64,000 bases of DNA, from contig NZ_CP108882.1 in the NCBI RefSeq assembly GCF_036347055.1, positions 6,994,001-7,058,000 on the forward strand, given 5' to 3'. Position 1 is the stretch's first letter. Every line of letters begins with the position of its first letter. Position numbers and translations under genes: made by a program. The stretch comes from Streptomyces sp. NBC_00820 (GTDB lineage Bacteria > Actinomycetota > Actinomycetes > Streptomycetales > Streptomycetaceae). Positions 22,916 to 37,070 of the stretch are shown piece after piece. A model generated the notes under the pieces. It was not told the DNA's origin and searched no databases. It saw nothing but the letters and a program-made list of their open reading frames with translations.

Positions 22916-22977
<62 letters not shown>

Positions 22978-22989
<12 letters not shown>

Positions 22990-23068
22990 CTCGTGAGAGT
23001 CGCAGTTCAGGGGCCGTTTCGGAGAAATCCGAGGCGGCCCCTGAATCGTTTTCGGGGACCGGTTGGGG
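22978..23068 (+). repeat. Left copy of 91-bp direct repeat (putative attL) at tRNA-Pro
   Basis: It starts 11 bases before the discriminator end of tRNA-Pro and runs through the tRNA terminator. It matches 37335-37425 at 88 of 91 positions (mismatches at 23032, 23034 and 23064). Together the two copies bracket the RiPP operon. Confidence 0.85.
23006..23045 (+). terminator. tRNA-Pro terminator hairpin
   Basis: Perfect 11-bp arms (23006-23016 and 23035-23045) followed by TCGTTTT, just after the tRNA. An equivalent hairpin is in the second repeat copy at 37363-37402. Confidence 0.85.
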
Positions 23069-23480: not shown

Positions 23481-23954
23481 GGCACGGGTCCGGGCACGCG
23501 CGGGTGCGCAGGGGGTCAGTGCAGCGGCACTGACCCCCTGCGCACCCGCGCGTGCCTCGTGCGGTGGTGGAGTGGCTTGTTTGCGATCGGGATCGATTTC
23601 GAGAGTGGAGTGCGCGCGAGCCGCTGGGGCTACCGCCGGTTACATGATGAAACCGCTCAAGTAGATTGCGTTTCACTGATCGCGGGGCGCCGGCGGATTT
23701 CGGCCGGGCGCTAACTGTTGTCCAGCAAACGGGAAGCGATAATGATCCGGGAGGCCGGCCCTATATCGCCCCGCGCCGTCATGGTTCGTCAAGCGGATCA
23801 CCAAGGATTCCAAAAGCGGTCCAATCGGGCACCGCTCGTTGAAGTCGGTACAGACTGTTGACGCGGCCATTACACGGCAGACACAATCCTCCCCGGTGGA
23901 CGCGGGTAGCGATGCCCCACCATCGAGAGGCGTACGATCCTGCGAAGGGGCGAT
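23481..23954 (+). other. Upstream region of the RiPP operon
   Basis: The first part holds the 29-bp hairpin at 23494-23555. The remaining ~400 bp are noticeably richer in A/T than the surroundings (for example near 23640-23740) and should contain the operon's promoter. I found no gene and no regulator-box repeat that I would defend. AAGGGG before 23955 is the ribosome site of the first biosynthetic gene. Confidence 0.6.
23494..23555 (+). terminator. Perfect 29-bp stem hairpin
   Basis: Arms at 23494-23522 and 23527-23555 are exact reverse complements with a 4-nt loop, starting 14 bp after the dehydrogenase remnant's stop. Its length and perfection suggest a strong bidirectional terminator shielding the RiPP operon from read-through. 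Confidence 0.88.
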
Positions 23955-26135
23955 ATGCAAACGATCGACCGTGCACCTCTGATGGAGATAAGACCCCGGC
24001 TGCGTAATGACGTGGTATTCCTTCGCGTCGACACCGGAATCTATCTCAGAAGTTCAGAGACTTCCTGCGTCCTCAAAGGCGCCGGCGCGTATGAGTGGAT
24101 GTCCGTCCTCGGCCCGCGAATGACCGGCGAATCCAGCATCGCCGAATTATGTGATGGGCTGGACGACAGCCGTCGTATAACCGCCGTCGGACTGATACGC
24201 ACCCTGCTCGACCGGGGCTTCGCCCGCGCCGTTCCGCGTCCTGACGTGCAGGTGCTGCCGGCCGCCGTATCGGATCTGTTCGCGCCGCAGATCAACTTCG
24301 TGGAACATTTCATGCACGCGGACCAGCGGACGCCGCAGGAACTCTTCGCGCGGTTCCGCTCCTCCCGGATCCTGGTCAGCGGACCGCCCGGGAGCGTCGC
24401 GGCGGCAGCGGTGCGCGGCCTGTTGCGCAACGGACTGGCCGAGACCACGCTGGACGACGCCGCGTGGGGATCGGAATTCGACACCGAGACGGCTCGGCTC
24501 GCGGAAGCGGGCGCACCGGCACACGTCGTCGTGCTGCCGTCGACCCCCGAGGATCTGACGCCGTACGACGTCGTGGTGGCCGTGGCCGACGGCTCGCGCG
24601 GCGGTGCGCTGCTCGAACTGACCGAACGGCTGCACGGCGCCCTGCGGGGCCCGCGCCTGGTCCCGGTGGTGGCCGACCGGGACCACGTGGTGCTCGGGCC
24701 GGTCTCCGGACCCGCGGAGCAGCCCTGCTGGGTGTGCGCGCGGCTTCGGCTGTCCGCCAACTCCGATCCCCGGCTCATGGCCGACTTCTGGCGCGCGATG
24801 GCGATCGGCCCGACCGGCGGTGAGGCCCCGAACGCCGGTGACACCCCCGGCGGCAGCACGGTGGCGCAGTCCATGGCCGGCAACGCCGTCGCGTTCGAGG
24901 TCTTCCGGCTGCGCACCGGCCAGTTGCGGCCGGACGACGAGCGGCACGCCGTGATCCAGGACCTGACCACACTCGAGTCCGGCCGCGAACGGGTGCTGCC
25001 GCACCCCGGATGCCCGATGCGGCACCAGCGGGTGGAGCCCGACGACGCCGTACGCCCGCCCGCCGACGACAGTGACGCCTATGGGCGAGCGGCTGTTCTG
25101 GTCTCCCCGGAATTCGGTCTGCTGTCCGGCTGGACGGACGACTCGATCCGGCAGATCCCGCTCAAGACCGGCCGGGTGCGGCTCGGGCCGGCCGGATCGC
25201 CGGCCGACGAAGCGCGCGAGATCGCCGCGTTCGACGCCGACACCGTCCTGGTCGCCCGCACACGCGCGGTGCAGGCGGCGGTCGTCTGCTACCTGGGCAG
25301 GCTCGGGCCCTCCGGGCTGCCGGACCAGGCCGGCCCGGCCGCCCCCCTGGACGGGGACGTGGTGCCGGCCGAGCGGCTCGCCCTGTTCAGCGGCCTGCCC
25401 GTAGCCGAGGAGGACCCGGCAACGCGGGCCCGGCTGTCCGCCGTGTCCCTGCACGACGGCAGCCATTGGCAGGTGCCGGCCGCGGCCGTCCACCCGCTCT
25501 CCCCGGCCAACTCCCGGCTGCTGTTCGAGCCGAGCCCCGCGGGCGCGGCGGCCGGCTGGACTGTGGCGGACGTACAGGAACGCGGGCTGTGCTCGGCGCT
25601 GGCGCAGCGCGGGCTCGTCCGCGCGATCCGCGGCGAGGAACCGGCCCTGCCGCTCACCGAGGAGTGGCTGGCCGGCGACGACGAGACGGCCTTCGCGCTC
25701 GGCAGTCTGCGGCACATCGGCCGAACCGCCCGCCTCTACGCGCTGCCCGGCGCCGCACCGGCCTTCGCGGTGCTCGCGGTGGTCGAGGGCGCCGATGGCG
25801 GCGCGGTCGACTGGGCGACGGGCTCGGCGCTGTCGGTACGGGCCGCCGTACGCGAGGCGGTGCGGGACGCCGTCGGACTCGCCGTCGGCCGGCACTACGA
25901 GGGCGCGCCCCTGGACCCGGGCGACCCGCTCGTGGCCGACTTCGACCCCAGGACCCTCGCCGAGGGCGACGCGAAGGCCGAGTGGTCCTTCGACCAGCCC
26001 GGGATGCCGATGCCCGAAGCGCTCGGCCGACTGGACGCCGACGGCACGCGTGTCCTGTTCGCCGACACGACCCCCATCGACCTGAGCGCGGTCCGCGCCA
26101 TGGTCACCGGAACGATCCTGCTCGCCGAGAAGTAG
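23955..26135 (+). CDS. RiPP leader-binding / cyclodehydratase partner protein (ocin-ThiF-like)
   Basis: A 726-residue protein that opens the RiPP operon. Residues ~10-90 resemble a PqqD-like winged-helix (RRE) that would bind the precursor leader. Residues ~120-330 form an E1/ThiF-like part with ILVSGPPGSV in place of the usual nucleotide loop and CWVC (about residue 258), a likely zinc pair. The C-terminal ~350 residues have degenerate YcaO-like patterns (VADVQERGLCSALAQRGL; ATGSALSVRAAVREAV). In thiopeptide and goadsporin-type pathways such proteins deliver the precursor to the YcaO cyclodehydratase. Codon 65 (24147-24149) is TTA, the rare leucine codon read by bldA tRNA in Streptomyces, so translation may be developmentally gated. 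The first ~80 codons are also A/T-rich for this genome. Confidence 0.82.
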   Translation: MQTIDRAPLMEIRPRLRNDVVFLRVDTGIYLRSSETSCVLKGAGAYEWMSVLGPRMTGESSIAELCDGLDDSRRITAVGLIRTLLDRGFARAVPRPDVQVLPAAVSDLFAPQINFVEHFMHADQRTPQELFARFRSSRILVSGPPGSVAAAAVRGLLRNGLAETTLDDAAWGSEFDTETARLAEAGAPAHVVVLPSTPEDLTPYDVVVAVADGSRGGALLELTERLHGALRGPRLVPVVADRDHVVLGPVSGPAEQPCWVCARLRLSANSDPRLMADFWRAMAIGPTGGEAPNAGDTPGGSTVAQSMAGNAVAFEVFRLRTGQLRPDDERHAVIQDLTTLESGRERVLPHPGCPMRHQRVEPDDAVRPPADDSDAYGRAAVLVSPEFGLLSGWTDDSIRQIPLKTGRVRLGPAGSPADEAREIAAFDADTVLVARTRAVQAAVVCYLGRLGPSGLPDQAGPAAPLDGDVVPAERLALFSGLPVAEEDPATRARLSAVSLHDGSHWQVPAAAVHPLSPANSRLLFEPSPAGAAAGWTVADVQERGLCSALAQRGLVRAIRGEEPALPLTEEWLAGDDETAFALGSLRHIGRTARLYALPGAAPAFAVLAVVEGADGGAVDWATGSALSVRAAVREAVRDAVGLAVGRHYEGAPLDPGDPLVADFDPRTLAEGDAKAEWSFDQPGMPMPEALGRLDADGTRVLFADTTPIDLSAVRAMVTGTILLAEK

Positions 26136-26230
26136 CGCGGCGGCGAGCCGGCCCGCGCCCCCGAGGCGCGCCACGGTTCTCGGAACACAGGTTCCGGGTG
26201 CACATCCCACATCACGAAGGGAGGATCGCC

Positions 26231-26404
26231 ATGTCCGCTGAGCTCAAGGACGAACTGAGCGCTCTGGAGAGCGCGACGTTCGAGATCGAGGAGATGACCG
26301 ACGAGTCCGTCGAGCTGGCATGGTCCAGCTCGTCCTGCTCGTGCTCCAGCTGCTGCTCCTGCTCCACCAGCAGCTGCTGCTCCTGCAGCAGCAGCACCAG
26401 CTGA
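26231..26404 (+). CDS. RiPP precursor peptide with Ser/Thr/Cys-only core
   Basis: A 57-residue peptide with a strong AAGGGAGGA ribosome site. Residues 1-30 form an acidic, helical leader (ending MTDESVELA), typical of thiazole/oxazole-modified and thiopeptide precursors. From Trp31 to the C-terminus the core is 27 residues: one Trp followed by 26 residues that are all Ser (16), Cys (8) or Thr (2). An internal unit SSCCSCS occurs twice with an 8-residue period (residues 39-45 and 47-53). Every core side chain after the Trp is therefore a potential target for azoline/azole formation or dehydration by the enzymes encoded around it. Cleavage after Ala30 is a guess. No known natural product core of this exact composition comes to mind. 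Confidence 0.9.
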   Translation: MSAELKDELSALESATFEIEEMTDESVELAWSSSSCSCSSCCSCSTSSCCSCSSSTS

Positions 26405-26415
26405 CGCAGGCAGCT

Positions 26416-26450
26416 GACCGGGCCGGTGCGCACCTGTCGCCGGCCCGGTC
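26416..26450 (+). terminator. Intercistronic hairpin after the precursor gene
   Basis: Perfect 11-bp arms (26416-26426, 26440-26450) with a 13-nt loop, 12 bp after the precursor stop. Such attenuators commonly let precursor mRNA accumulate above that of the modifying enzymes. Confidence 0.75.
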
Positions 26451-26543
26451 GTCCGGCTGACACGTGCGGCCGCCCGACGCGACGGACCCCGTCGCCGAGG
26501 CCGGCGGCCGCACCCCCCATCTTCGAAGTGACTGGGTGGACGG

Positions 26544-28505
26544 ATGAATGTGGTGTCGAACGCGGTGACCACCGCGACGGTCCCGGACGACGGCCCCCGG
26601 GTGACCGACGTCGTCCGCGACTATCTGGCCGGCCGCGCCGGCGCGGGCGTCACGGTCGACGTCGGGGTACTCGGCCTGCCGGCACGGTCCGCGCCGGCAG
26701 CGTCGAACAGGGACCGCCCGGTCGGCGAACTCGTCTACCCGGTGCGCCTGTACGGCGGGACCATGCTGATGGGGCCGCTGCACCGGGCCGACGGCACGAG
26801 TCGGCCGTGCGGCCGCTGCCTGGACCGCCGCTGGCTGGCGCTGCGCCCGGTCGAGGAGCGCGGGCCGATCGAGGACGGCGCGGACGCGTGGGCCGCGGGC
26901 GACGGATCCTCACTCACCGCCTTCGCCCTGGAACAGATCGCGCAGATCGTGCACGCGGAGACCGCCGACGGTGAACTCGCCCCCGGCGACCGGCGGATCG
27001 GCCGGATCGTGGAGCTGCGGACCCGCGACCTGACGACCGTCCGCCACGACCTGATCCCCGACTCCGAGTGCGAGAACTGCGCCACCCCGGCACCCGACAC
27101 CGCCGACGGCGCGCGACTGCCGCTTCACCCGCGGCCGAAGCCGGGACCGACCACCTACCGGGGCGCGTCGGCGGCGGATCTGACCCTGCCGACCGGCGGC
27201 CTGGTCAACGAGGTGTGCGGAGCGCTGGCGAGCGCGGCCCGCCGCGTCTACCAGTGCAGCGCCACCCTGCCCGTCAGCGGGTACTTCCGGGTGCGCAGCA
27301 AGTACGACTTCCACGAGATGTGGTGGAGCGGGCAGTCGCAGAGCTCGGCGAGCAGCGAGCGGTACGGCATCCTTGAGGGCCTGGAGCGGTACGCGGGTCA
27401 GTTCCCGCGGGCCAAGGACCCGAAGACGTACGGCAGTTACCGCGAACTGGCGCCGGACGCCCTCGACCCCGCGTCGATGGGCTCGTACCGCCCGGAGTTC
27501 TACGTCGGACACCACGACTACTACCAGCCCTACCGTCCGGACACCCCGACCCACTGGGTGTGGGGCTACTCCTTCGGCGATCAGCGGCCGCTGCTGGTGC
27601 CCGAGCAGTTCGTCTTCTACCTGGACCGCCGCCCGGACCGGAAGTTCGTCCAGGAGTGCTCCAACGGCTGCGCCAGCGGCAGCAGCGTCGAGGAGGCTCT
27701 CCTGCACGGCATGCTCGAACTCATCGAGCGCGACGCGTTCCTGCTGTGCTGGTACGGCGCCGCCAGGCTGCCGGAGATCGACCAGGCGACCGTCGTCGAC
27801 GAGGAGGTCCAGTTCGTACTGGACCGGGTCGCGCGGCTCGGCTACCGGATGCGCCTGTTCGACATGCGGGTGGACGTCCCCGTACCCGCCGTGATGGCGG
27901 TGGCCGAACGGCTGGACGGCGGCCTCGGCCGGCTGTGCTTCGCCGCCGGAGCGAGCCTCGACCCGGTGGAGGCGGTGCGCGCGGCCATCGCGGAGACCGC
28001 CTCCTACATCCCGGGCATGGACGAGCGGGTGGAGGCGAGACTGCCCGACCTGCGCGCGATGGTCACCGACTACGACCGGGTGCACGAACTCACCCACCAC
28101 GCGTTGCTGTACGGTCTGCCGGAGATGGCACCGGCCGTCGACTTCCTGCTCGACGCGGCGCCGCCCCGGTCGATGGACGAGCTGTACGGCGCCTGGCTCG
28201 CCCAGCGGCCCGAGAGCCTGGACCTGGCCGAGGACGCGCGGTTCGTGATGGAGCGGCTGCGCGAGGTCGGCAGTGACGTCGTCGCGGTCGACCAGACCTG
28301 CCCGGAGCAGGACGGCACCGGCATCCGCACGCTGAGCGTGCTGGCGCCGGGGCTGGTGCCGATCGACTTCGGCTGGGAGCGGCAGCGCGTACTCCAGCAC
28401 CCGCGGCTGCAGGCCTACCTCGACGGCGAGCTGACGGAGATCCACGCCCGTGCCGAGGGGTTCGGCCCCACGGGGCTGAACCGCAGGCCGCACCCGTTCC
28501 CGTGA
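26544..28505 (+). CDS. YcaO cyclodehydratase (azoline-forming)
   Basis: A 653-residue protein. Residues ~80-190 carry two cysteine pairs, CGRC and CENC, fitting a structural zinc. The YcaO domain follows, with ATP/Mg-binding signatures SSERYGILEGLERYAGQF (Glu-rich first motif) and SSVEEALLHGMLELIERDA, and the protein ends in the Pro-rich tail RRPHPFP typical of azoline-forming YcaO enzymes. It uses ATP to convert Cys, and often Ser/Thr, of the precursor into thiazolines/oxazolines, in partnership with the ThiF-like protein. It starts 139 bp after the precursor and overlaps the following open frame at its stop. Confidence 0.92.
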   Translation: MNVVSNAVTTATVPDDGPRVTDVVRDYLAGRAGAGVTVDVGVLGLPARSAPAASNRDRPVGELVYPVRLYGGTMLMGPLHRADGTSRPCGRCLDRRWLALRPVEERGPIEDGADAWAAGDGSSLTAFALEQIAQIVHAETADGELAPGDRRIGRIVELRTRDLTTVRHDLIPDSECENCATPAPDTADGARLPLHPRPKPGPTTYRGASAADLTLPTGGLVNEVCGALASAARRVYQCSATLPVSGYFRVRSKYDFHEMWWSGQSQSSASSERYGILEGLERYAGQFPRAKDPKTYGSYRELAPDALDPASMGSYRPEFYVGHHDYYQPYRPDTPTHWVWGYSFGDQRPLLVPEQFVFYLDRRPDRKFVQECSNGCASGSSVEEALLHGMLELIERDAFLLCWYGAARLPEIDQATVVDEEVQFVLDRVARLGYRMRLFDMRVDVPVPAVMAVAERLDGGLGRLCFAAGASLDPVEAVRAAIAETASYIPGMDERVEARLPDLRAMVTDYDRVHELTHHALLYGLPEMAPAVDFLLDAAPPRSMDELYGAWLAQRPESLDLAEDARFVMERLREVGSDVVAVDQTCPEQDGTGIRTLSVLAPGLVPIDFGWERQRVLQHPRLQAYLDGELTEIHARAEGFGPTGLNRRPHPFP

Positions 28506-28552
28506 GCCGTCCGTCCCCGTCAGCGCGAGAGCCGGCCGAAGGAGGAGACCCC

Positions 28553-30172
28553 GTGTCCGAGGACCGCACGCAGGTCGTGAGCGACTATGTGGAGTCGGTG
28601 TTCCGGCGCGGCCGGGAGCCGATGGAGCCGGTCGGATTCACCCCCGACTGGGAGGACCAGCCCTCCCGGCACAAGACCTACCTGGGGGTACGGCGCTTTC
28701 CCCTGCCGGCGGGCACCGATCTGCCGCTGGCCGGCGCCGCGGACGTACTCCTCGGCGAACCGCCCGCCGGACAGGGCCCGCCCTGGACGCTCGACTCGCT
28801 CGCCGCGCTGCTGCGGCTGTCCTACGGCGTTCTCGACCGCAGGCTACGGGTGAGCTGGAACCAGGACAGCGATGTGCGGGTGCTCTACCCGGAGGCGCTG
28901 TGGGGGAGAGGCACCGCCTCCGGGGGAGGGATGTACCCGCTGGAGGTGTACTGGGTGGCCGGGCCGGGCGGACCGCTGACTCCCGGCGTCTACCACTACT
29001 CGACGGCGCACCACGGCTTCGAACGCCTGCTGGCCGGTGACCTCACCGACGAGGTGCGCGCGGCGTGCGAGTCCGGGGCCGGTTCCGGATCGGCCGACGG
29101 CTTCCTCATCGTGACCGTGCGGTTCTGGAAGAACTCCTTCAAGTACAACAGCTTCTGCTACCACGTGGTGACGCAGGACGCCGGTGCCCTGCTGGGCAGT
29201 TGGGAGCTGATCGCGCGGGGCACGGGCCGGCGCCTCACCAGGGTGCTGTGGTTCGACGACGAGCGGCTGAACCGGCTGCTGGGGCTCGACACCGACGAGG
29301 AGTGCGCGCTGGCCGTGGTCCCGGTGTCGTTCGGCACACCCGCCGCTCCTGCGGCCGATCCAGTCCACCGCGACGGCCCGGTCGGCCTGATCGACCGGCC
29401 CAGCTTCGAGAGATCGGCGCGCCTGCTCACCTTCGAGCAGATCGAGCAGGTGCACCACGCGGTCCTCGCGGACCGCCGTGAGCGCCCGGAGCCCGACGTG
29501 GCGCGCGGACTCGTACCGGTCCCGCCCGCCGGGGGCCAGGAGGTCGTACTGCCGGAGCCGCTGACGGACCGGCTGGGCCAGGACATCGGCGAGACACTGC
29601 GCTCCCGCCGCACCAGCTTCGGCTCCTTCACCCGCTCCCGCCCGCTCGGCCTCGACGAACTGGGCACCGTGCTCGCGGGCACCGCGTCGGGGCAGCGGTA
29701 CGTCGCGGACGTGGTGCCCGACGACGTGGGGCTGACGGGGCTGTACGTCCTGGCGAACCGGGTCGCCGGACTGCCGAGCGGCACCTACCGCTACGACGGC
29801 GGCGGGCACCGGCTGCGCGTGATGCGCGAGATGCCGCTCGCCCAGAAGCTGCAACACGCCTACTACCTGAGCAACTACAACCTGGAACAGGTCGGCGCCG
29901 TGCTGGCGATCTCGGGGCGGTGGCGCAGCACGCTCGACGCCTACGGCAGCCGCGGCTACCGGGTGCTCAACTCCGAGGTGGGCGCGGTGGCGCAGACGGC
30001 CTACACTGCCGCCGCCGCGCTGGGCGTCGGCTGCGGAGCCGTGCTCGGCTTCGACAACATCGCCATCGACGAGTGGGCCGGCCTCGACGACGGGGACGAA
30101 CGAACCTTCCTCTTCGTGCTGCTCGGCCACGAACGCGCGGACAGCGCGGACTTCGACTACCGGCTGGTCTGA
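28553..30172 (+). CDS. SagB-type FMN azoline dehydrogenase (tandem nitroreductase folds)
   Basis: A 539-residue protein containing two nitroreductase-like halves: the first with GGGMYPLEVYWV (about residue 122) and the second ending GVGCGAVLGFDN and FVLLGHE. SagB/McbC-type enzymes bind FMN and oxidise azolines to aromatic azoles. Long, two-domain forms are usual in actinobacterial thiazole-peptide clusters. The GTG at 28553 is chosen because GGAGGAG lies 6 bp upstream; an upstream GTG at 28502 overlapping the YcaO stop is possible. Confidence 0.9.
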   Translation: MSEDRTQVVSDYVESVFRRGREPMEPVGFTPDWEDQPSRHKTYLGVRRFPLPAGTDLPLAGAADVLLGEPPAGQGPPWTLDSLAALLRLSYGVLDRRLRVSWNQDSDVRVLYPEALWGRGTASGGGMYPLEVYWVAGPGGPLTPGVYHYSTAHHGFERLLAGDLTDEVRAACESGAGSGSADGFLIVTVRFWKNSFKYNSFCYHVVTQDAGALLGSWELIARGTGRRLTRVLWFDDERLNRLLGLDTDEECALAVVPVSFGTPAAPAADPVHRDGPVGLIDRPSFERSARLLTFEQIEQVHHAVLADRRERPEPDVARGLVPVPPAGGQEVVLPEPLTDRLGQDIGETLRSRRTSFGSFTRSRPLGLDELGTVLAGTASGQRYVADVVPDDVGLTGLYVLANRVAGLPSGTYRYDGGGHRLRVMREMPLAQKLQHAYYLSNYNLEQVGAVLAISGRWRSTLDAYGSRGYRVLNSEVGAVAQTAYTAAAALGVGCGAVLGFDNIAIDEWAGLDDGDERTFLFVLLGHERADSADFDYRLV

Positions 30173-30184
30173 GAGGGCTGATCC

Positions 30185-32923
30185 GTGAAATCCAGCGCGC
30201 TGCCGGCGCCGACGTCACATGTGGCGTCGGCCGCGACCCTGCCCGACCACGAGAGCGCGGAGCGCGTGCGCTGGCACCTGGTGCCGAGGTTCATGCTGCG
30301 CGTCGGCGGTCTCCCCTTCGAAACCGCCGCCGCGCTGGCCACTCCCGCGAGCGCGGCATGGGCGGACGACGTGCTCGACGCGCGGCGGCGGCTGCGCGAG
30401 CGCGGAGCCCGGCTCGCCGACCGCCTGCAGGAGCGGGTGGCACAGAGCCTCGACGACCCGGCGGCCCGCCGGACCCTGATCAACCTGCGCCGCGACGTCT
30501 TCAACTCCCGTGCGCCACGCGGCTTGGAGCGGGCCGAGCCGCTGCTGGCGGGCACCGAACTCGCGGAACTGCGCGCGTGGTTGACCGACCGGCAGCGGCA
30601 CGAGGCGCTGCTGCGCACCGGCTCCGGCGTCCTGGCCGAGGAGACCGAAGCGGCCCGACGCGAGCTGCGCCGCACCGCGACGGAGACGGACCTGCGGCAC
30701 GGCATCCAGCTGTCGTCCCCGTCGCTCGACGAGTACCTCGACGCATACCTGAACCGCGCCGACGCCGACGGCCCGCTGAGCAAGCGGGAGAGGCGCATCG
30801 AACGCTCGCTGCTGGAGTACCTGCTGCGCACCGCGTGCAAGACCAGCCCGTTCAGCACCCTGACGGCGGTGTCCGCGGGCCACTTCGCCGAGGCCGGCGG
30901 CCGGCCGCTCGTCGCGTCCGTCGACGGGTGGGAGAAGCGGGGCAGCACCCGGCTGAACATCGCGGTACTCGCCCGGCTCTCGGAACTGCTCACCACCAAC
31001 CCCCGGATCCGCCACGAACTGCCGGTCCGCGCCACCAGCGGAACCGAGGTGCACCAGGACCGGGTCCGCTACCTGCGCAAGCTGCGCGGCGCCGACGGCA
31101 ATGCCGACGCGGCGGTCACCCTGGACGCGGTCCACGAGAGCCTGTTCTACCTGCCCGGCGGAGACGCCCTCGCCGACGTGCTCAAGCTGTTCGGCGACGG
31201 CACGACGCTGCGGTTCGAGGACGCCGTACGGCAGCTGTGCGCGCTGGACGTCAAGCGCCCGCAGCCCGAAGTGGAGCGGTATCTGGCCCAGTTGCTCAGG
31301 CTGGGCCTGCTCGTCGTGCCGGATCTGCACCTCGACATCCACGACCCGGACCCGGTCTCCACCTACCGCGGCGGGCTGCGGGGACTGGGCACGAGCTGGG
31401 CCGACGACATCGCGGCGCTCGTCGAGCGGATGGGCGCGGACGTCGAACGGTTCGCCGGTGCCGGACTGGCCCGCAGGCGTGAACTGCTCGCCCACGTCAA
31501 GGAGTCGGTGGCCGAGACACATCGCCTCCTGGGCCGCGACGACACACCGGTCCTGCGCACCCTGGTCTACGAGGACACCACCCTGCCCGGACTGACGGTG
31601 ACCGGTGACACCTCGACGTGGACCCGGAAGCTCACCCCCGGCCTGCGACAACTCGCCCGCATCCTGCCGGCGTTCGACGGCAACGCCGTACGCAGGATCG
31701 TCACCAGGGGGTTCTTCCGCGCACGCTACGGCGAAGGCGGCCGCTGCGAGGACTTCCTGTCCTTCGCCCACCAGTTCAACCAGGACTTCTACGACAACTA
31801 CAACCAACGCCTGATGCGCCACCAGCGCTTCGACGGCACCACACCGCTTCCGTACGACAACTGGTTCCGGCAGGAGGAGATCACCGGCATCGACCGCGCC
31901 CGCGCCGCCGTGGCCGAGGAGATGGGACTCCGGTACGGGAAAGCCCGCGCGAGCGGAGCCGACGTCGAACTCGACGAGGACTTCCTCGCCACCGTGGAGG
32001 GACTGCTGCCGCGCACCGAGGACCTGCGGTCGCTGTCGTTCTTCCTCCAGCTCGCCGAGAACGGCACCGAGGACCCCCTCGTGGTCGTCAACCGCGTCTA
32101 CTCCGGACTCACCCTCCTCTTCTCCCGGTTCGCGCACTGCTTCGACGACGCCCTCACCGCGTCACTGCGCCGCTCGCTGGACGACGCCGTACCGGAGGGC
32201 GCCGTGTTCGCCGAGCTCAAGGGCGGCTACGACGCGACCAACCTGAACCTCCACCCCGTCGTCACCCCCTACGAGATCGTCTGCCCCGGCGAGACCAGCT
32301 TCCGCCCGCCGCACGAGCGGATCCCGGTGGAGGACCTGGTCGTCGAGCACGACGCGGAAACCGACCGGCTGCGCCTGCGCTCCCGCCGGCTCGGCGTCGA
32401 GGTGATCCCCGTCTACCTCGGCTTCCTGCTGCCCATGGCGCTCCCCGAGGTGCAGCAGGTGCTGCTGAACTTCTCCTGTACGACCATGGTCCAGCTCGAC
32501 CTGTGGGAGGGCACCGGCGTCCAGGAGGGCGACAGCGGTGTCCTCCCGCGCGTACGGCTGGGCAACGTGGTGCTCCAGCGCAAGTCCTGGCGGTTCGCCG
32601 CCGGCCAACTGCCGCCGGCGGTGGCCGGACAGTCGGACGACGAGTGGTTCCTGGCCTGGCGGGAATGGCAGCGGAGCGCGGGACTCCCGCGCCATGTGTT
32701 CGCCTCGCTCGGCGGCGAACACAAGCCGCAGTACGTGGACTTCGACTCCTACGCGTGCGTGCGGCTGCTGGAGACCGCCGTCCGCAAGAGCGCCTCGGCG
32801 GTGGTGCTCACCGAGATGCTGCCCGGCCCCGACCAGCTGTGGCTGCGCGACGACCGGCACCGGTACGTCACCGAACTCACGGTCCAGCTCGACGGCGTCA
32901 ACGGAACGGAGACGGAGCGGTGA
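30185..32923 (+). CDS. LanB-type dehydratase, glutamylation domain protein
   Basis: A 912-residue protein of the lantibiotic dehydratase N-terminal family. In split LanB systems this subunit uses glutamyl-tRNA to esterify Ser/Thr side chains of the precursor. The family features are a long N-terminal helical region, ERSLLEYLLRTACKTSPFSTLTAVSAG (about residue 208) and a DxxN/NLNLHPVVTPYEIVCPGE region towards the C-terminus. GAGAGGG precedes the GTG start. Its stop overlaps the ATG of the elimination subunit, ensuring equal expression. Known relatives serve thiopeptide and goadsporin biosynthesis. Confidence 0.92.
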   Translation: MKSSALPAPTSHVASAATLPDHESAERVRWHLVPRFMLRVGGLPFETAAALATPASAAWADDVLDARRRLRERGARLADRLQERVAQSLDDPAARRTLINLRRDVFNSRAPRGLERAEPLLAGTELAELRAWLTDRQRHEALLRTGSGVLAEETEAARRELRRTATETDLRHGIQLSSPSLDEYLDAYLNRADADGPLSKRERRIERSLLEYLLRTACKTSPFSTLTAVSAGHFAEAGGRPLVASVDGWEKRGSTRLNIAVLARLSELLTTNPRIRHELPVRATSGTEVHQDRVRYLRKLRGADGNADAAVTLDAVHESLFYLPGGDALADVLKLFGDGTTLRFEDAVRQLCALDVKRPQPEVERYLAQLLRLGLLVVPDLHLDIHDPDPVSTYRGGLRGLGTSWADDIAALVERMGADVERFAGAGLARRRELLAHVKESVAETHRLLGRDDTPVLRTLVYEDTTLPGLTVTGDTSTWTRKLTPGLRQLARILPAFDGNAVRRIVTRGFFRARYGEGGRCEDFLSFAHQFNQDFYDNYNQRLMRHQRFDGTTPLPYDNWFRQEEITGIDRARAAVAEEMGLRYGKARASGADVELDEDFLATVEGLLPRTEDLRSLSFFLQLAENGTEDPLVVVNRVYSGLTLLFSRFAHCFDDALTASLRRSLDDAVPEGAVFAELKGGYDATNLNLHPVVTPYEIVCPGETSFRPPHERIPVEDLVVEHDAETDRLRLRSRRLGVEVIPVYLGFLLPMALPEVQQVLLNFSCTTMVQLDLWEGTGVQEGDSGVLPRVRLGNVVLQRKSWRFAAGQLPPAVAGQSDDEWFLAWREWQRSAGLPRHVFASLGGEHKPQYVDFDSYACVRLLETAVRKSASAVVLTEMLPGPDQLWLRDDRHRYVTELTVQLDGVNGTETER

Positions 32924-34038
32924 TGGACGTGATGGACGGCAAGCGAGGACCGGACGACGGCGACACCGGCGGCATGAAGCACGGCGTCTCCGTCGAGACG
33001 GAGCAGGACATCGAAACGGAGCAGGACGGCGACGGCTGGATCAGCCTGCACGTCTTCTACGCCGCGAACGCCAACCCCGTACTGGTGCACTGCGTACGGC
33101 CGTTGGTGTCACGCCTGCGGGATCTGGGCATGCTGCGCTCGTGGTTCTTCATCCGCTACTGGCTGGAGGGCCCGCACATCAGGCTGCGCCTGCTGCCGGC
33201 CGACGCGTCGGCGGCCGGCGAGGTCGCGCGCACGGCACGGGAGACACTGGAGGCGTACCTGCGCGAGCGCCCCGCCCTCTACGAGGAGGACCGCAACGCC
33301 AGCGGCGACCTCTACAAGAACATGTTCCTCGCCGAGTACAGCGAGGAACGCTGGGACGAACTCTACGGCGCCGACGGCGAGATGCCGTTCCAGGGGAACA
33401 ACAGCGTCGCCCCCGTCCCCTACGAACGCGAACTGGACCGCTACGGCGGCCCGGCCGGCATGGAGCTGGCCGAGTGGCACTTCCAGGAGTCCAGCGAGAC
33501 GGTGATGACGCTGCTGGACACCACCAATGTGCACGTACGCACCGTACTGCTGGGCCAGGCCGCCCAGTTGACGGCAGGACTGTGCTTCGCCCTGCTGCGC
33601 GACGAGGACGCGGTGGCCCGGTTCCTCGGCCGCTACCGCACCATGTGGGAGACCTCGTACCAGGAGCCGAGCGACAGCCAGCACGAGCGCTTCGACCGCT
33701 CCTACGAACGGATGAAGGACCGGCTGGTACCCCGGCTGCAGCATGTGCGCGACAGCGCCCGGGGCGACTCCTCGGCCTCGCCCACCCCGCTGGAGCGGGC
33801 CTGGCTGGCACACTGCACCGAACTCCGCGACCGCGTACTGAAACTGGCCGACGCCGGACACCTGACGTTCCGCGACGGAGCCGTACCGGACCCCGAGGAC
33901 GCCTTGGCCATCGTGCTCAGCTCCTACGTCCACATGACCAACAACCGGCTCGGGGTGAGCATCCTGGACGAGATCTACCTCTCCTACGTCATCTGCAAGG
34001 CGCTGTCCGACATGGCACCCCTGGAGGCGCTGCGGTGA
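32923..34038 (+). CDS. LanB elimination-domain (SpaB_C) protein
   Basis: A 371-residue thiopeptide-type bacteriocin biosynthesis (SpaB_C) protein. After a ~45-residue polar N-terminus it shows the family opening WISLHVFYAANANPVLVHCVRPLV and RSWFFIRYWLEGPHIRLRL. It would eliminate glutamate from esterified Ser/Thr to give Dha/Dhb. Thiopeptide clusters hold a second SpaB_C-like protein as pyridine synthase; only this one is present, directly after its dehydratase partner, so elimination is the best assignment and no macrocyclising enzyme remains. Confidence 0.9.
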   Translation: MDVMDGKRGPDDGDTGGMKHGVSVETEQDIETEQDGDGWISLHVFYAANANPVLVHCVRPLVSRLRDLGMLRSWFFIRYWLEGPHIRLRLLPADASAAGEVARTARETLEAYLRERPALYEEDRNASGDLYKNMFLAEYSEERWDELYGADGEMPFQGNNSVAPVPYERELDRYGGPAGMELAEWHFQESSETVMTLLDTTNVHVRTVLLGQAAQLTAGLCFALLRDEDAVARFLGRYRTMWETSYQEPSDSQHERFDRSYERMKDRLVPRLQHVRDSARGDSSASPTPLERAWLAHCTELRDRVLKLADAGHLTFRDGAVPDPEDALAIVLSSYVHMTNNRLGVSILDEIYLSYVICKALSDMAPLEALR

Positions 34039-35279
34039 CCGAGACGGCCTACGACCGGCCGCGGCTCCGGCCCGAGGTGGTGCTCGGCCCCGCCCTGCGC
34101 TCCGGCCCGAAGACCGTGCACCACGTCAAGGACGCACGCACCGGCTGCTACTACCGGGTGGGGCCCCGCGAGCACTTCATCATGGGCCTGATGGACGGCG
34201 GCCACACCATCGAGGACATCGGGCGCAGCTACACCGACACCTACGACCGCCGGCTCGGACCTGCCCACTGGCAGCAGATGTTCACCATGCTCGGCCGCTA
34301 CCAGCTGCTCGACGGACACGCCGACGACGCGGCCCTGGACAAGCTCAGACAGGCCCACGAGGCCAAGGAGTCGGCGCGTCAGAGCCTGCTGCGCCGACGC
34401 TGGGTGATGCTGCGCCCCGACCGGTTGTGCGCCACGCTCGCCACCCGGCTGGCGTTCGCCTTCCGCGCGGCGTTCCTGATCCCCGCGTCCGTCCTGGTGG
34501 TCGCTCTGCAGGTGTTCGTCTGGACGCACCTGTCCACCCTGACCCACGAGGCGACCCACCAGAAGTCCTGGATGATCACCGTGCCGCTGTCGATGCTGCT
34601 GTTCTGGGGCATCACCGTGCTGCACGAGTTCGCCCACGGCGTGACCTGCCGTCACTTCGGCGGCACGGTAACCGAGATCGGGCTCAGCTGGCGGTTTCCG
34701 ATGCTGACCCCTTACTGCCGCACGGACGACATCGTGCTCTTCCCCCGGCGCGGGGCCCGGGTGGGTACCGCGTTCGCCGGCGTCTTCGTCAGCCTGCTCG
34801 CGCTGGTACCGGTGCTGGCCTGGTGGCTGCTGGCCCGGGACGGGGTGCCCGGACGCCCGCTCGCCGCCGCGCTGCTGCTGTTCGGCAGCTCAGGTGCCCT
34901 GATGAGTCTGCTGCCGGTTCTGCGATCGGACGGTTACGTCATGCTCACCCACGCGCTGGACCTCGTGGACCTGCGCCGCGAGTCCTACCGGTTCTGGCGG
35001 CTGCGCCTGCGCCGGCGCGACCCCGCCGCCCGGGAACAGCTCGACGCCTACCCGCCCCGCGACGCACGCGCCTACGCGGTCTACGGCATCACCTCGCTCC
35101 TGCTCCTCGCGTCGGCCTACTGCGGCCTGATGTGGGTCTGGTTCGGCACCCTCCAGCGCTGGACGGGCCCGCTGTGGGCGGCGGTGATCCTCGCCGTTGA
35201 GTCCGTGGTGGCGGCCGGCATCCTGGCGCTGGCCGCGCGGGGCCGCCGTACCGGCGAACGGCAGGCCGCCGATGCCTGA
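34035..35279 (+). CDS. PqqD-like/M50 membrane metalloprotease, likely leader peptidase
   Basis: A 414-residue protein with a ~120-residue soluble N-terminus of PqqD-like type (GCYYRVGPREHFIMGLMDGG) and then about eight membrane segments. Segment two bears HEFAHGVTCRHFGG (residues 197-210), the zinc-binding HExxH of the M50 site-2 protease family, and LRSDGY near residue 308 resembles the partner Asp motif of YydH-like enzymes. A second HExxH-like string (HEATH, 171-175) lies in the preceding loop. In RiPP operons such proteins probably remove the leader or process during export. It overlaps the SpaB_C gene by 4 bases and the ABC ATPase by 8 bases. Confidence 0.82.
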   Translation: MTETAYDRPRLRPEVVLGPALRSGPKTVHHVKDARTGCYYRVGPREHFIMGLMDGGHTIEDIGRSYTDTYDRRLGPAHWQQMFTMLGRYQLLDGHADDAALDKLRQAHEAKESARQSLLRRRWVMLRPDRLCATLATRLAFAFRAAFLIPASVLVVALQVFVWTHLSTLTHEATHQKSWMITVPLSMLLFWGITVLHEFAHGVTCRHFGGTVTEIGLSWRFPMLTPYCRTDDIVLFPRRGARVGTAFAGVFVSLLALVPVLAWWLLARDGVPGRPLAAALLLFGSSGALMSLLPVLRSDGYVMLTHALDLVDLRRESYRFWRLRLRRRDPAAREQLDAYPPRDARAYAVYGITSLLLLASAYCGLMWVWFGTLQRWTGPLWAAVILAVESVVAAGILALAARGRRTGERQAADA

Positions 35280-36228
35280 CAGCGGCGACGCGATCGCGAT
35301 CCGCACCAGCGGGCTGACCAAGCGGTACGGCCCGGAAACCGGTGTGTTCGACCTCGACATGACGGTCCGGCGCGGCGAGGTCTACGGATTCCTCGGACCC
35401 AACGGAGCCGGCAAGAGCACCACCATGCGCATGCTGGTGGGGCTGACCCGGCCCACCTCGGGCACCGCGACGGTGCTGGGCCACCGCGCCGGGACCCGGC
35501 GCAGTCTGCGTGGGACGGGAGCACTGATCGAGGCACCTCCGGCCCTGTATCCGCACCTGTCCGGCCGGGACAACCTGCGCGTCATCGCCGGCTACGCGTC
35601 CGTACCCGCGACCCGCATCGAGCAGGTCCTCGAAGAGGTCGGGATGACGGCCAAAGCGGACGTCGCCTTCCGCGCGTACTCGCTCGGCATGAAACAGCGC
35701 GTCGCGGTGGCCGCCGCGCTGCTGAAGGACCCCGCCCTGCTCATCCTCGACGAGCCGACCAACGGCCTTGACCCGGAGGGCATGGCGAGCATGCGCGAGC
35801 TGATCACCGGTCTGCGCCGGGACCACCGCACGGTGCTGCTGTCCAGCCATCTGCTGGCCGAGGTGGAGCACCTGTGCGACCGGGTCGGGGTGATCCGCCG
35901 AGGCCGGCTGATCGCCGAGGGCACGGTCGCCGAACTGCGCCGCAGCGCGGGCGAGGGCGGTCTGACGGTGACCGTGGACGCGCCCGAGCGCGCAGCCGAA
36001 CTCGTACGGAAGATGCCGGCCGTCCGCTCGGCGACGGCCGTCGACGGGGAGCTGCGCGTGGTCGTCGACCCGCGCGAGGCGGCCGCCGTCAACCGGCTGC
36101 TCGTGGAGAACGGCCTGGAGGTCAGCGAACTGCGCAAGCAGGTCCTCTCGTTGGAGGACGTGTTCATGGACCTGGTGGAGGACCACCGGCCCGCCGGGCC
36201 GGAATCCATGAAGGTGGTGGGTCGTTGA
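35272..36228 (+). CDS. ABC exporter ATPase (BcrA/CcmA type)
   Basis: A 318-residue ATPase with Walker A GPNGAGKS, signature YSLGMKQR and Walker B LLILDEPTNGLDPEG, followed by the ~90-residue C-terminal extension found in bacitracin-type and self-immunity ATPases. It pairs with the adjacent ABC-2 permease for export of, or immunity to, the RiPP product. Its ATG overlaps the protease stop and its own stop overlaps the permease start. Confidence 0.9.
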   Translation: MPDSGDAIAIRTSGLTKRYGPETGVFDLDMTVRRGEVYGFLGPNGAGKSTTMRMLVGLTRPTSGTATVLGHRAGTRRSLRGTGALIEAPPALYPHLSGRDNLRVIAGYASVPATRIEQVLEEVGMTAKADVAFRAYSLGMKQRVAVAAALLKDPALLILDEPTNGLDPEGMASMRELITGLRRDHRTVLLSSHLLAEVEHLCDRVGVIRRGRLIAEGTVAELRRSAGEGGLTVTVDAPERAAELVRKMPAVRSATAVDGELRVVVDPREAAAVNRLLVENGLEVSELRKQVLSLEDVFMDLVEDHRPAGPESMKVVGR

Positions 36229-37070
36229 ACGGCGTGCTTCGGGCCGAACTGCTGGCGACACGCAGGCGTCCCGGTGTCTGGATCGTCGGCGGGGCATGGG
36301 CCGGCCTGGCGGTGGTCTTCGGCATGGTGGTGCCGTACATCGTCTGGCTGGCCATCAGGAACCGGCCGGTCGGCTCGGCGGGTGATCCGGAGCAACTGAT
36401 CGGCGGCGTACTGCCGGACAAGTTCCTGTCCGGCACGGTCGACCTGTACCCGATGTTCGGCAGCGCGCTGATGCTGATCCTCGGCGCCGTCCTCGTCGGC
36501 GGCGAGTACCGGTGGGGAACCTGGAGCACCCTCCTGGTCCAAGGACCCGGCCGCAGCTCGGCGGTGCTCGGCAAGGCCATCGCGGCAGCGGTGGCGATCC
36601 TCTGCATCACGGTGCTGGTGCTGGCGGCGAGCGCGGGGGCGAGCGGGCTCGTCGCGGCACTCACCGGCCGCCCCGCCCACTGGCCGGACGCGGCCACGCT
36701 GCTGGGCGGGATCGGCGCCGTCTGGCTGATCAGCGTGGCCGCGGCGAGCCTGGGCATCTTCCTGTCGATCCTGCTGCGCGGCACCGGGGCGGCCATCGGA
36801 GTGGGCCTGCTCTGGCTGCTGGCGCTGGAGAACCTCGTCTCCGGACTGGCCGGCACGCTGCCCGCTCTGAAGTGGGTGCAGCGGCTGCTGATCGGACCGA
36901 GCGCCGGGTCGCTCGCCACGGCCCTCGATCCGTCCGGCAAGCCCAACACCTCGATCCCCGGCGTCGTCTCGGTCTCGGGCCCCCTGTCCGCGAGCCTGGT
37001 ACTCACGGCGTACGTGGTGGTGTGCCTCGGCCTCTCCTGCCTGTTCGTCAACAGGCGGGACGTGAGCTGA
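36225..37070 (+). CDS. ABC-2 type permease of the RiPP exporter
   Basis: A 281-residue membrane protein with six hydrophobic segments and a large loop after the first, as in ABC-2 permeases. The likely start is TTG at 36225, overlapping the ATPase stop (TTGA); a GTG three codons downstream (36234) is an alternative. The protein ends with RRDVS. It is the last gene of the operon; a hairpin follows within 30 bp. Confidence 0.85.
   Translation: MNGVLRAELLATRRRPGVWIVGGAWAGLAVVFGMVVPYIVWLAIRNRPVGSAGDPEQLIGGVLPDKFLSGTVDLYPMFGSALMLILGAVLVGGEYRWGTWSTLLVQGPGRSSAVLGKAIAAAVAILCITVLVLAASAGASGLVAALTGRPAHWPDAATLLGGIGAVWLISVAAASLGIFLSILLRGTGAAIGVGLLWLLALENLVSGLAGTLPALKWVQRLLIGPSAGSLATALDPSGKPNTSIPGVVSVSGPLSASLVLTAYVVVCLGLSCLFVNRRDVS

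Follow-up and report, generated by a model that had tools for sequence, protein, structure and literature searches.

An all-Ser/Thr/Cys precursor core with alternating exchangeable and fixed positions in a Streptomyces RiPP cluster

Alternation in the precursor core

The DNA stretch analyzed here, called the window, comprises 64,000 nucleotides of the Streptomyces sp. NBC_00820 genome (contig NZ_CP108882.1, positions 6,994,001 to 7,058,000). At window positions 26231-26404 of the forward strand, it encodes a 57-amino-acid peptide in which Trp31 is followed by exactly 26 residues: 16 Ser, 8 Cys and 2 Thr. The product of this gene is probably matured into a linear ribosomally synthesized and post-translationally modified peptide (RiPP) with azoles and dehydroalanines, by the steps and at the sites proposed below. 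The new element is the variation within its family: across 55 distinct cores, exchanges among Cys, Thr and Ser alternate along the core and are far more frequent at odd than at even positions.

The alignment, made without anchoring, contained 163 precursors: the one of the window, 116 from a protein search and 46 that were picked out of clusters solely by their composition. Seventeen were dropped for insertions or gaps, leaving 146 that represent the 55 distinct cores; 43 of the 46 composition-found precursors were kept, with 17 distinct cores. From position 1 to 26, the numbers of Cys/Thr/Ser exchanges are 31, 0, 5, 0, 3, 1, 19, 2, 0, 2, 10, 0, 2, 0, 2, 1, 1, 3, 3, 1, 27, 2, 10, 1, 16 and 9. 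The odd positions thus sum to 129 and the even ones to 13 without position 26 (22 with it). When positions 1-25 were shuffled, 57 of 100,000 shuffles were as extreme, a count that ignores kinship between the cores. The twelve fixed-Ser sites (2, 4, 6, 8, 9, 12, 14, 16, 17, 20, 22 and 24) together show nine changes to Cys or Thr and ten to other residues.

Position 9 follows the pattern of the even class, as position 17 nearly does, and Cys is almost invariably present at positions 10 and 18. The register therefore shifts at two Ser-Cys-Cys triplets that are eight residues apart. The sequence-only reading of this DNA had already pointed to the uninterrupted modifiable stretch and to an SSCCSCS unit repeated with period 8, and the translation agrees with both. 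The units occupy core positions 8-14 (26345-26365, forward strand) and 16-22 (26369-26389, forward strand), as calculated from the codon positions, and are part of an eight-residue register that spans the whole core. The longest other Ser/Thr/Cys run in the six frames of the window measures nine residues. With independent residues at the six-frame Ser/Thr/Cys frequency of 0.169, about 1e-15 runs of at least 26 would be expected in the window.

Cys, Thr and Ser can all form azoles, Cys cannot be dehydrated, and dehydration of Thr gives a different product than that of Ser. Azole sites would therefore tolerate exchanges among the three residues, and dehydroalanine sites would have to stay Ser. 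In the available parts of the published accounts, the azoles directly after the two dehydroalanine sites of goadsporin are required, and every dehydroalanine of carnazolamide directly precedes an azole. The odd positions are accordingly read as azoles and the even Ser as dehydroalanines. On this reading, the core of the window would hold 13 azole sites and 10 dehydroalanine sites and leave Ser 9, 17 and 26 unassigned.

An alternative chemistry could be imagined, in which only Cys is converted to thiazoles, most Ser and Thr remain unmodified or are irregularly dehydrated, and the composition of the core merely reflects duplication. Partial modification has a precedent in carnazolamide, in which eight of 20 Ser/Thr/Cys are azoles and eight more dehydroalanines according to the accessible text, and Ser is the commonest residue at the even sites whatever the cause. 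However, the fixed-Ser sites rarely change while the odd sites swap Cys, Thr and Ser freely, which favors chemistry at both classes and makes this explanation unlikely.

Conservation of the precursor

The precursor gene is a real, conserved gene. A ribosome-binding site (GGGAGG, 26219-26224) lies upstream of its ATG, and the peptide has the same length in loci L032-L034, L036 and L096. The leader (residues 1-31, 26231-26323, forward strand; putative cleavage site) carries a TFEIEE motif that is common in the family, and the core, delimited by translation and alignment, occupies 26324-26401 of the same strand. An antisense open reading frame at 26212-26520 overlaps the gene.

Homologous precursors do exist, as the protein search yielded 116 proteins at E<=10 and 85 at E<=1e-3. 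The best match (P0002, E 2.2e-20) may stand for the source genome's own kind. The relatives are named from Streptomyces, Jatrophihabitans, Actinomadura, Micromonospora, Saccharothrix, Nocardiopsis, Kribbella and Ktedonobacteraceae, among others. The core residues of L032, L033 and L036 are the same as those of the window, and L034 has one difference. On a 682-kb linear plasmid, Streptomyces sp. NBC_00316 also carries a copy (L096) with identical core residues. Between the window and L033, seven of the 78 core bases differ, AGC/TCC switches included, and no residue does. Compared with the window, the Ser codons of L032-L034 and L036 vary within TCN and also switch between AGC and TCN at several sites. 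Such conservation of residues despite codon changes suggests selection on Ser itself.

That the reading frame is no gene, only a low-complexity repeat in GC-rich DNA, is scarcely credible. It is short, and the table of the NBC_00316 plasmid, which is incomplete and may differ from the original record, lists an antisense hypothetical protein (L096 4241-4492) and no precursor. Against this stand the ribosome-binding site, the conserved start, the same residues under different Ser codons and the conserved position in the cluster.

The residue before the core varies. It is Ala in 49, Trp in 40, Phe in seven and another residue in 12 of the 108 proteins, out of 117, that fit the search pattern. Trp at this place is thus not a family feature, and the single Trp cap once proposed for the product does not hold for the family; in the window's own peptide, Trp would be retained only in the case of an azole at position 1. 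The pattern behind this first position count required Ser at 6, 8, 9, 12 and 14 and Thr at 15. The invariance that it gave at those positions was circular and was discarded, and only the count of the residue before the core was kept.

Of the 392 genomes in the genus search, 67 gave a match at E<=0.01, the source genome included, the next best reaching only 7.4e-6. All 29 weaker matches that were examined belong to a sister precursor family, not to this one. In the class search, five of 394 genomes matched at E<=1e-6, again including the source. The sister family has a core, STSCSSTSTCSSTTSTTSC, that is nearly all Ser/Thr/Cys and a leader with FEISDYSD; it occurs in many Streptomyces (L003-L031 and many of L053-L070) and adjoins a second YcaO gene in many of the L053-L070 loci.

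Several clusters (L038, L040-L045 and L047-L049) hold three precursors each, or four in L048, with similar middles and differing core ends, which suggests multi-peptide products. In P0088 and P0103, additional CSSSCSCSST-type units lengthen the core, which looks like an expansion of the repeat. The models NF033400 and TIGR03892, for thiazolylpeptide-type bacteriocin precursors, gave no match to the window's precursor at E<=1; five of nine tested relatives reach the cut-off of one or the other, and PF19409 is listed for six of the 116 relatives. As NCBIfam already has models for it, this kind of precursor is not new.

Organization of the gene cluster

The precursor lies in a complete RiPP cluster (23955-37070) in which all genes point in one direction, on the forward strand. 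Several reading frames overlap, giving an arrangement like that of a coupled operon. The first gene (23955-26135) encodes an F-protein, an ocin-ThiF-like leader-binding protein with an N-terminal RiPP recognition element (RRE). It misses the cut-off of TIGR03693 (66 bits against 562) and reaches that of TIGR03882 (51 bits against 36.9), and its residues 14-93 match PbtF (PDB 8t19, E 1.9e-5). Downstream of the precursor, a fused cyclodehydratase with a C domain and a YcaO domain (26544-28505; PF02624 270, TIGR03604 300 and TIGR03882 83 bits) is the only protein of the genome that PF02624 matches at E<=1e-5. It is followed by a SagB-type, flavin mononucleotide-dependent azoline dehydrogenase (28553-30172, likely GTG start at 28553; TIGR03605 162 bits, PF00881).

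The next two genes encode a split LanB. LanB-N (30185-32923; PF04738 168 bits), assigned to tRNA-dependent glutamylation, matches PDB 6ec7 best (E 1.6e-33), which we take to be TbtB, and the goadsporin protein 9jhq at E 2.8e-13. LanB-C, assigned to glutamate elimination, occupies 32923-34038 (likely ATG start at 32923; PF14028 171 bits). An M50-like intramembrane protease with a HEFAH motif (34035-35279; NF041824 119 bits, under the cut-off of 300) likely removes the leader. The cluster closes with the ATP-binding subunit of an ATP-binding cassette (ABC) transporter (35272-36228; PF00005, DrrA-type) and an ABC-2 permease (36225-37070; PF12679).

The blastn similarity between the window and L032, a locus of Streptomyces sp. 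NBC_00154, extends from 23833 to 37065 and then ends, and the cluster limits were set at that stretch for this reason. Fifty-eight loci with a LanB-C were fetched. The six-gene order from F-protein to protease, together with a precursor of this type, was found in 20 of them (L032-L038, L040-L045, L047-L052 and L083), with divergent precursors in some (L051, L052). Both ABC genes lie downstream in seven of these 20 (L032-L037 and L050), a count that excludes upstream permease-like matches in L047-L049.

A split LanB together with eight Cys in the core could also lead to thioether (lanthionine-type) bridges between dehydroalanine and Cys, and two LANC_like matches exist in the genome. They lie about 4.5 and 0.45 Mb away, however, and no LanC cyclase is found among the cluster genes. 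Cys/Thr swaps at the Cys sites 7 and 21 would moreover destroy a thioether and keep an azole. Bridging of this kind is therefore highly improbable.

Analysis of the LanB-C protein

Whether the product is linear or macrocyclic depends on LanB-C. The decisive enzyme of a thiopeptide is the pyridine synthase, a diverged LanB-C. No pyridine synthase or second LanB-C-type protein was found in the genome, a single 8.1-Mb contig that is 99.99% complete, with three models that cover LanB-C-related sequences. PF14028 and a profile built from 50 relatives each find one LanB-C-type protein, and the single match of the pyridine synthase model is this same LanB-C, with 110 bits. Likewise, each of the 20 clusters and the window have one LanB-C per locus. 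The 50-relative profile scores TbtD at 64 bits and finds the synthase-like protein of L059, so it would probably have revealed a second LanB-C.

In the profile scan of the loci, L059, from a Nakamurella metagenome-assembled genome, is alone in having a second LanB-C-like protein. This protein (L059 1203-2378) is pyridine-synthase-like, scores 36 bits, lacks the second Arg and lies beside an elimination-type one; L059 looks like a true thiopeptide cluster. In L088, two pieces in neighboring frames were taken for one broken reading.

The LanB-C of the window keeps the motifs H-x-R-x-R, RYGG and HMTNNR. Its residues R70, R72, R156 and H320, numbered from the ATG at 32974, align with the elimination residues of NisB, MibB and MadB, solved dehydratases in which all four are kept. 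The aligned NisB positions are presumably R784, R786, R826 and H961. All 50 aligned family proteins have the equivalents of R784, R786 and H961, and at that of R826, 35 have Arg and 15 Lys. TbtD, whose alignment stops short of the His, lacks two of the three residues covered, the equivalents of R786 and R826. Those of R826 and H961 are missing from the TsrE/TsrL chain.

A macrocyclic thiopeptide would arise if the single LanB-C, or an unrecognized enzyme, also joined two dehydroalanines into a pyridine and expelled the leader. Several observations point this way and weigh against a linear product. Some relatives are named thiazolylpeptide-type bacteriocin by NCBI. The F-protein with a fused cyclodehydratase, as present here, is one of two thiopeptide layouts in the part of the literature available. 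The predicted model of LanB-C (predicted local distance difference test, pLDDT, 89.8) has a fold closer to TbtD, its nearest match, than to NisB, although the fold search rows shown contain no solved stand-alone thiopeptide elimination protein and the comparison may be lopsided. The 110 bits with the pyridine synthase model are far under its cut-off of 325, however. The four elimination positions are kept. The cluster also likely encodes a leader protease, which would be superfluous if a cyclase expelled the leader. Although the fold search favors pyridine synthases, the thiopeptide was rejected as the best explanation for want of a second LanB-C protein and is considered improbable. The elimination residues and the absent second LanB-C weigh more heavily than the fold likeness to TbtD. 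Given a single LanB-C that keeps the elimination residues, and with no pyridine synthase found by the models used, a linear product is expected, following a goadsporin-like logic.

Proposed maturation to a linear peptide

In the scheme that we favor for the linear product, the F-protein would bind the leader, as its RRE match suggests. The YcaO protein and the SagB-type dehydrogenase would then form azoles from Cys, Thr and part of the Ser residues at odd positions (1, 3, 5, 7, 11, 13, 15, 19, 21, 23 and 25), and also from the first Cys of both Ser-Cys-Cys triplets (10 and 18). Afterwards, the split LanB would glutamylate the even Ser (2, 4, 6, 8, 12, 14, 16, 20, 22 and 24) and eliminate glutamate to give dehydroalanines. 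Each of these Ser directly precedes an azole site or one of S9 and S17, which the scheme leaves unassigned together with S26. No pyridine ring would be formed, keeping the product linear. If position 1 is an azole, its ring would incorporate the W31 carbonyl; this residue would then be retained in the product, with the leader cut off upstream of it. The M50-like protease probably frees the product, and the ABC transporter would export it. This export and the design as a small secreted peptide suggest, by analogy with goadsporin, an antibacterial or signalling role.

The near-continuous polyazole/dehydro chain of the sequence-only reading gains from the encoded cyclodehydratase, dehydrogenase and split LanB and from the lack of a second LanB-C-type protein in the genome; what the variation adds beyond it is the alternation of exchangeable and fixed positions. 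In its boldest form, which we advance tentatively and hold to be somewhat doubtful, the product would be a full or almost full (azole-dehydroalanine)n ribbon. Its sole ordinary residue would be the N-terminal Trp, Ala or Phe, Ser-Cys-Cys would supply a tri- or bis-azole every eight residues, and related clusters would export two to four ribbons together.

The core would thus be a natural substrate in which either of two enzymes could claim every residue, and its natural variants seem to show, position by position, which enzyme prevails. The sharing of Ser between YcaO and LanB becomes directly testable, and the scheme predicts an unusually rigid, conjugated peptide.

Genomic surroundings

A tRNA-Pro(GGG) gene (22916-22990) ends 964 bases before the cluster. 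Its last 43 bases have three exact occurrences in the source genome, between 6.92 and 7.02 Mb, on one side of the cluster only. In NBC_00154, two exact copies of these 43 bases, one of them at L032 14893-14935, flank a 16.7-kb stretch that contains the cluster. This flanking suggests that the cluster travels as an integrated island and that the site is an integration hotspot.

Comparison with known systems

The published systems are compared here as far as the available parts of their descriptions go. The cluster shares with those of goadsporin and the spongiicolazolicins a leader with a Ser/Thr/Cys-bearing core, a YcaO protein, a dehydrogenase and a split LanB, and the lack of a [4+2] enzyme; in the window, YcaO and dehydrogenase genes lie by the Ser/Thr/Cys-rich precursor, and the LanB-C models found no [4+2] enzyme in the genome. 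The goadsporin core measures 19 residues and contains six azoles and two dehydroalanines, and the spongiicolazolicins have 28-29 residues, whereas the core here comprises 26 residues that are all Ser/Thr/Cys. Compared with goadsporin, an F-protein is present, an M50-like protease takes the place of the peptidase-bearing ABC transporter, and no acetyltransferase is found among the cluster genes scanned.

The thiopeptides (thiomuracin, GE2270 and lactazole) resemble this system in the PbtF-like RRE, in a LanB-N nearest 6ec7 and in a LanB-C related to TbtD. They differ in their pyridine synthase, which was not found in this genome with the LanB-C models. Carnazolamide, a dehydrazole, has dehydroalanine directly before azole, as predicted here, and a hypermodified Ser/Thr/Cys-rich core; it is made with a DUF4135 LanM-like dehydratase and an NHLP leader, in contrast to the split LanB and short leader here.

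The available portion of Cox et al. 2015 (PMC4603692) states that, apart from heterocycloanthracin and thiopeptide clusters, F proteins were seen in just two cases, each an orphan. On that statement, a linear, F-protein-bearing family with a split LanB is an unusual combination. A full-text search with core fragments, which excluded supplements and most subscription papers, found no paper with this core or product, its one match being an unrelated bridging code. Passages of papers that mention the NCBI precursor models do not describe this peptide either, and it is not named in the titles or abstracts listed by broader literature searches. The biosynthesis would work like that of goadsporin, with front-end parts of the thiopeptide type, and the cluster genes and the variation among related sequences suggest that the product belongs to a known class of natural products, of which it would be an extreme form.
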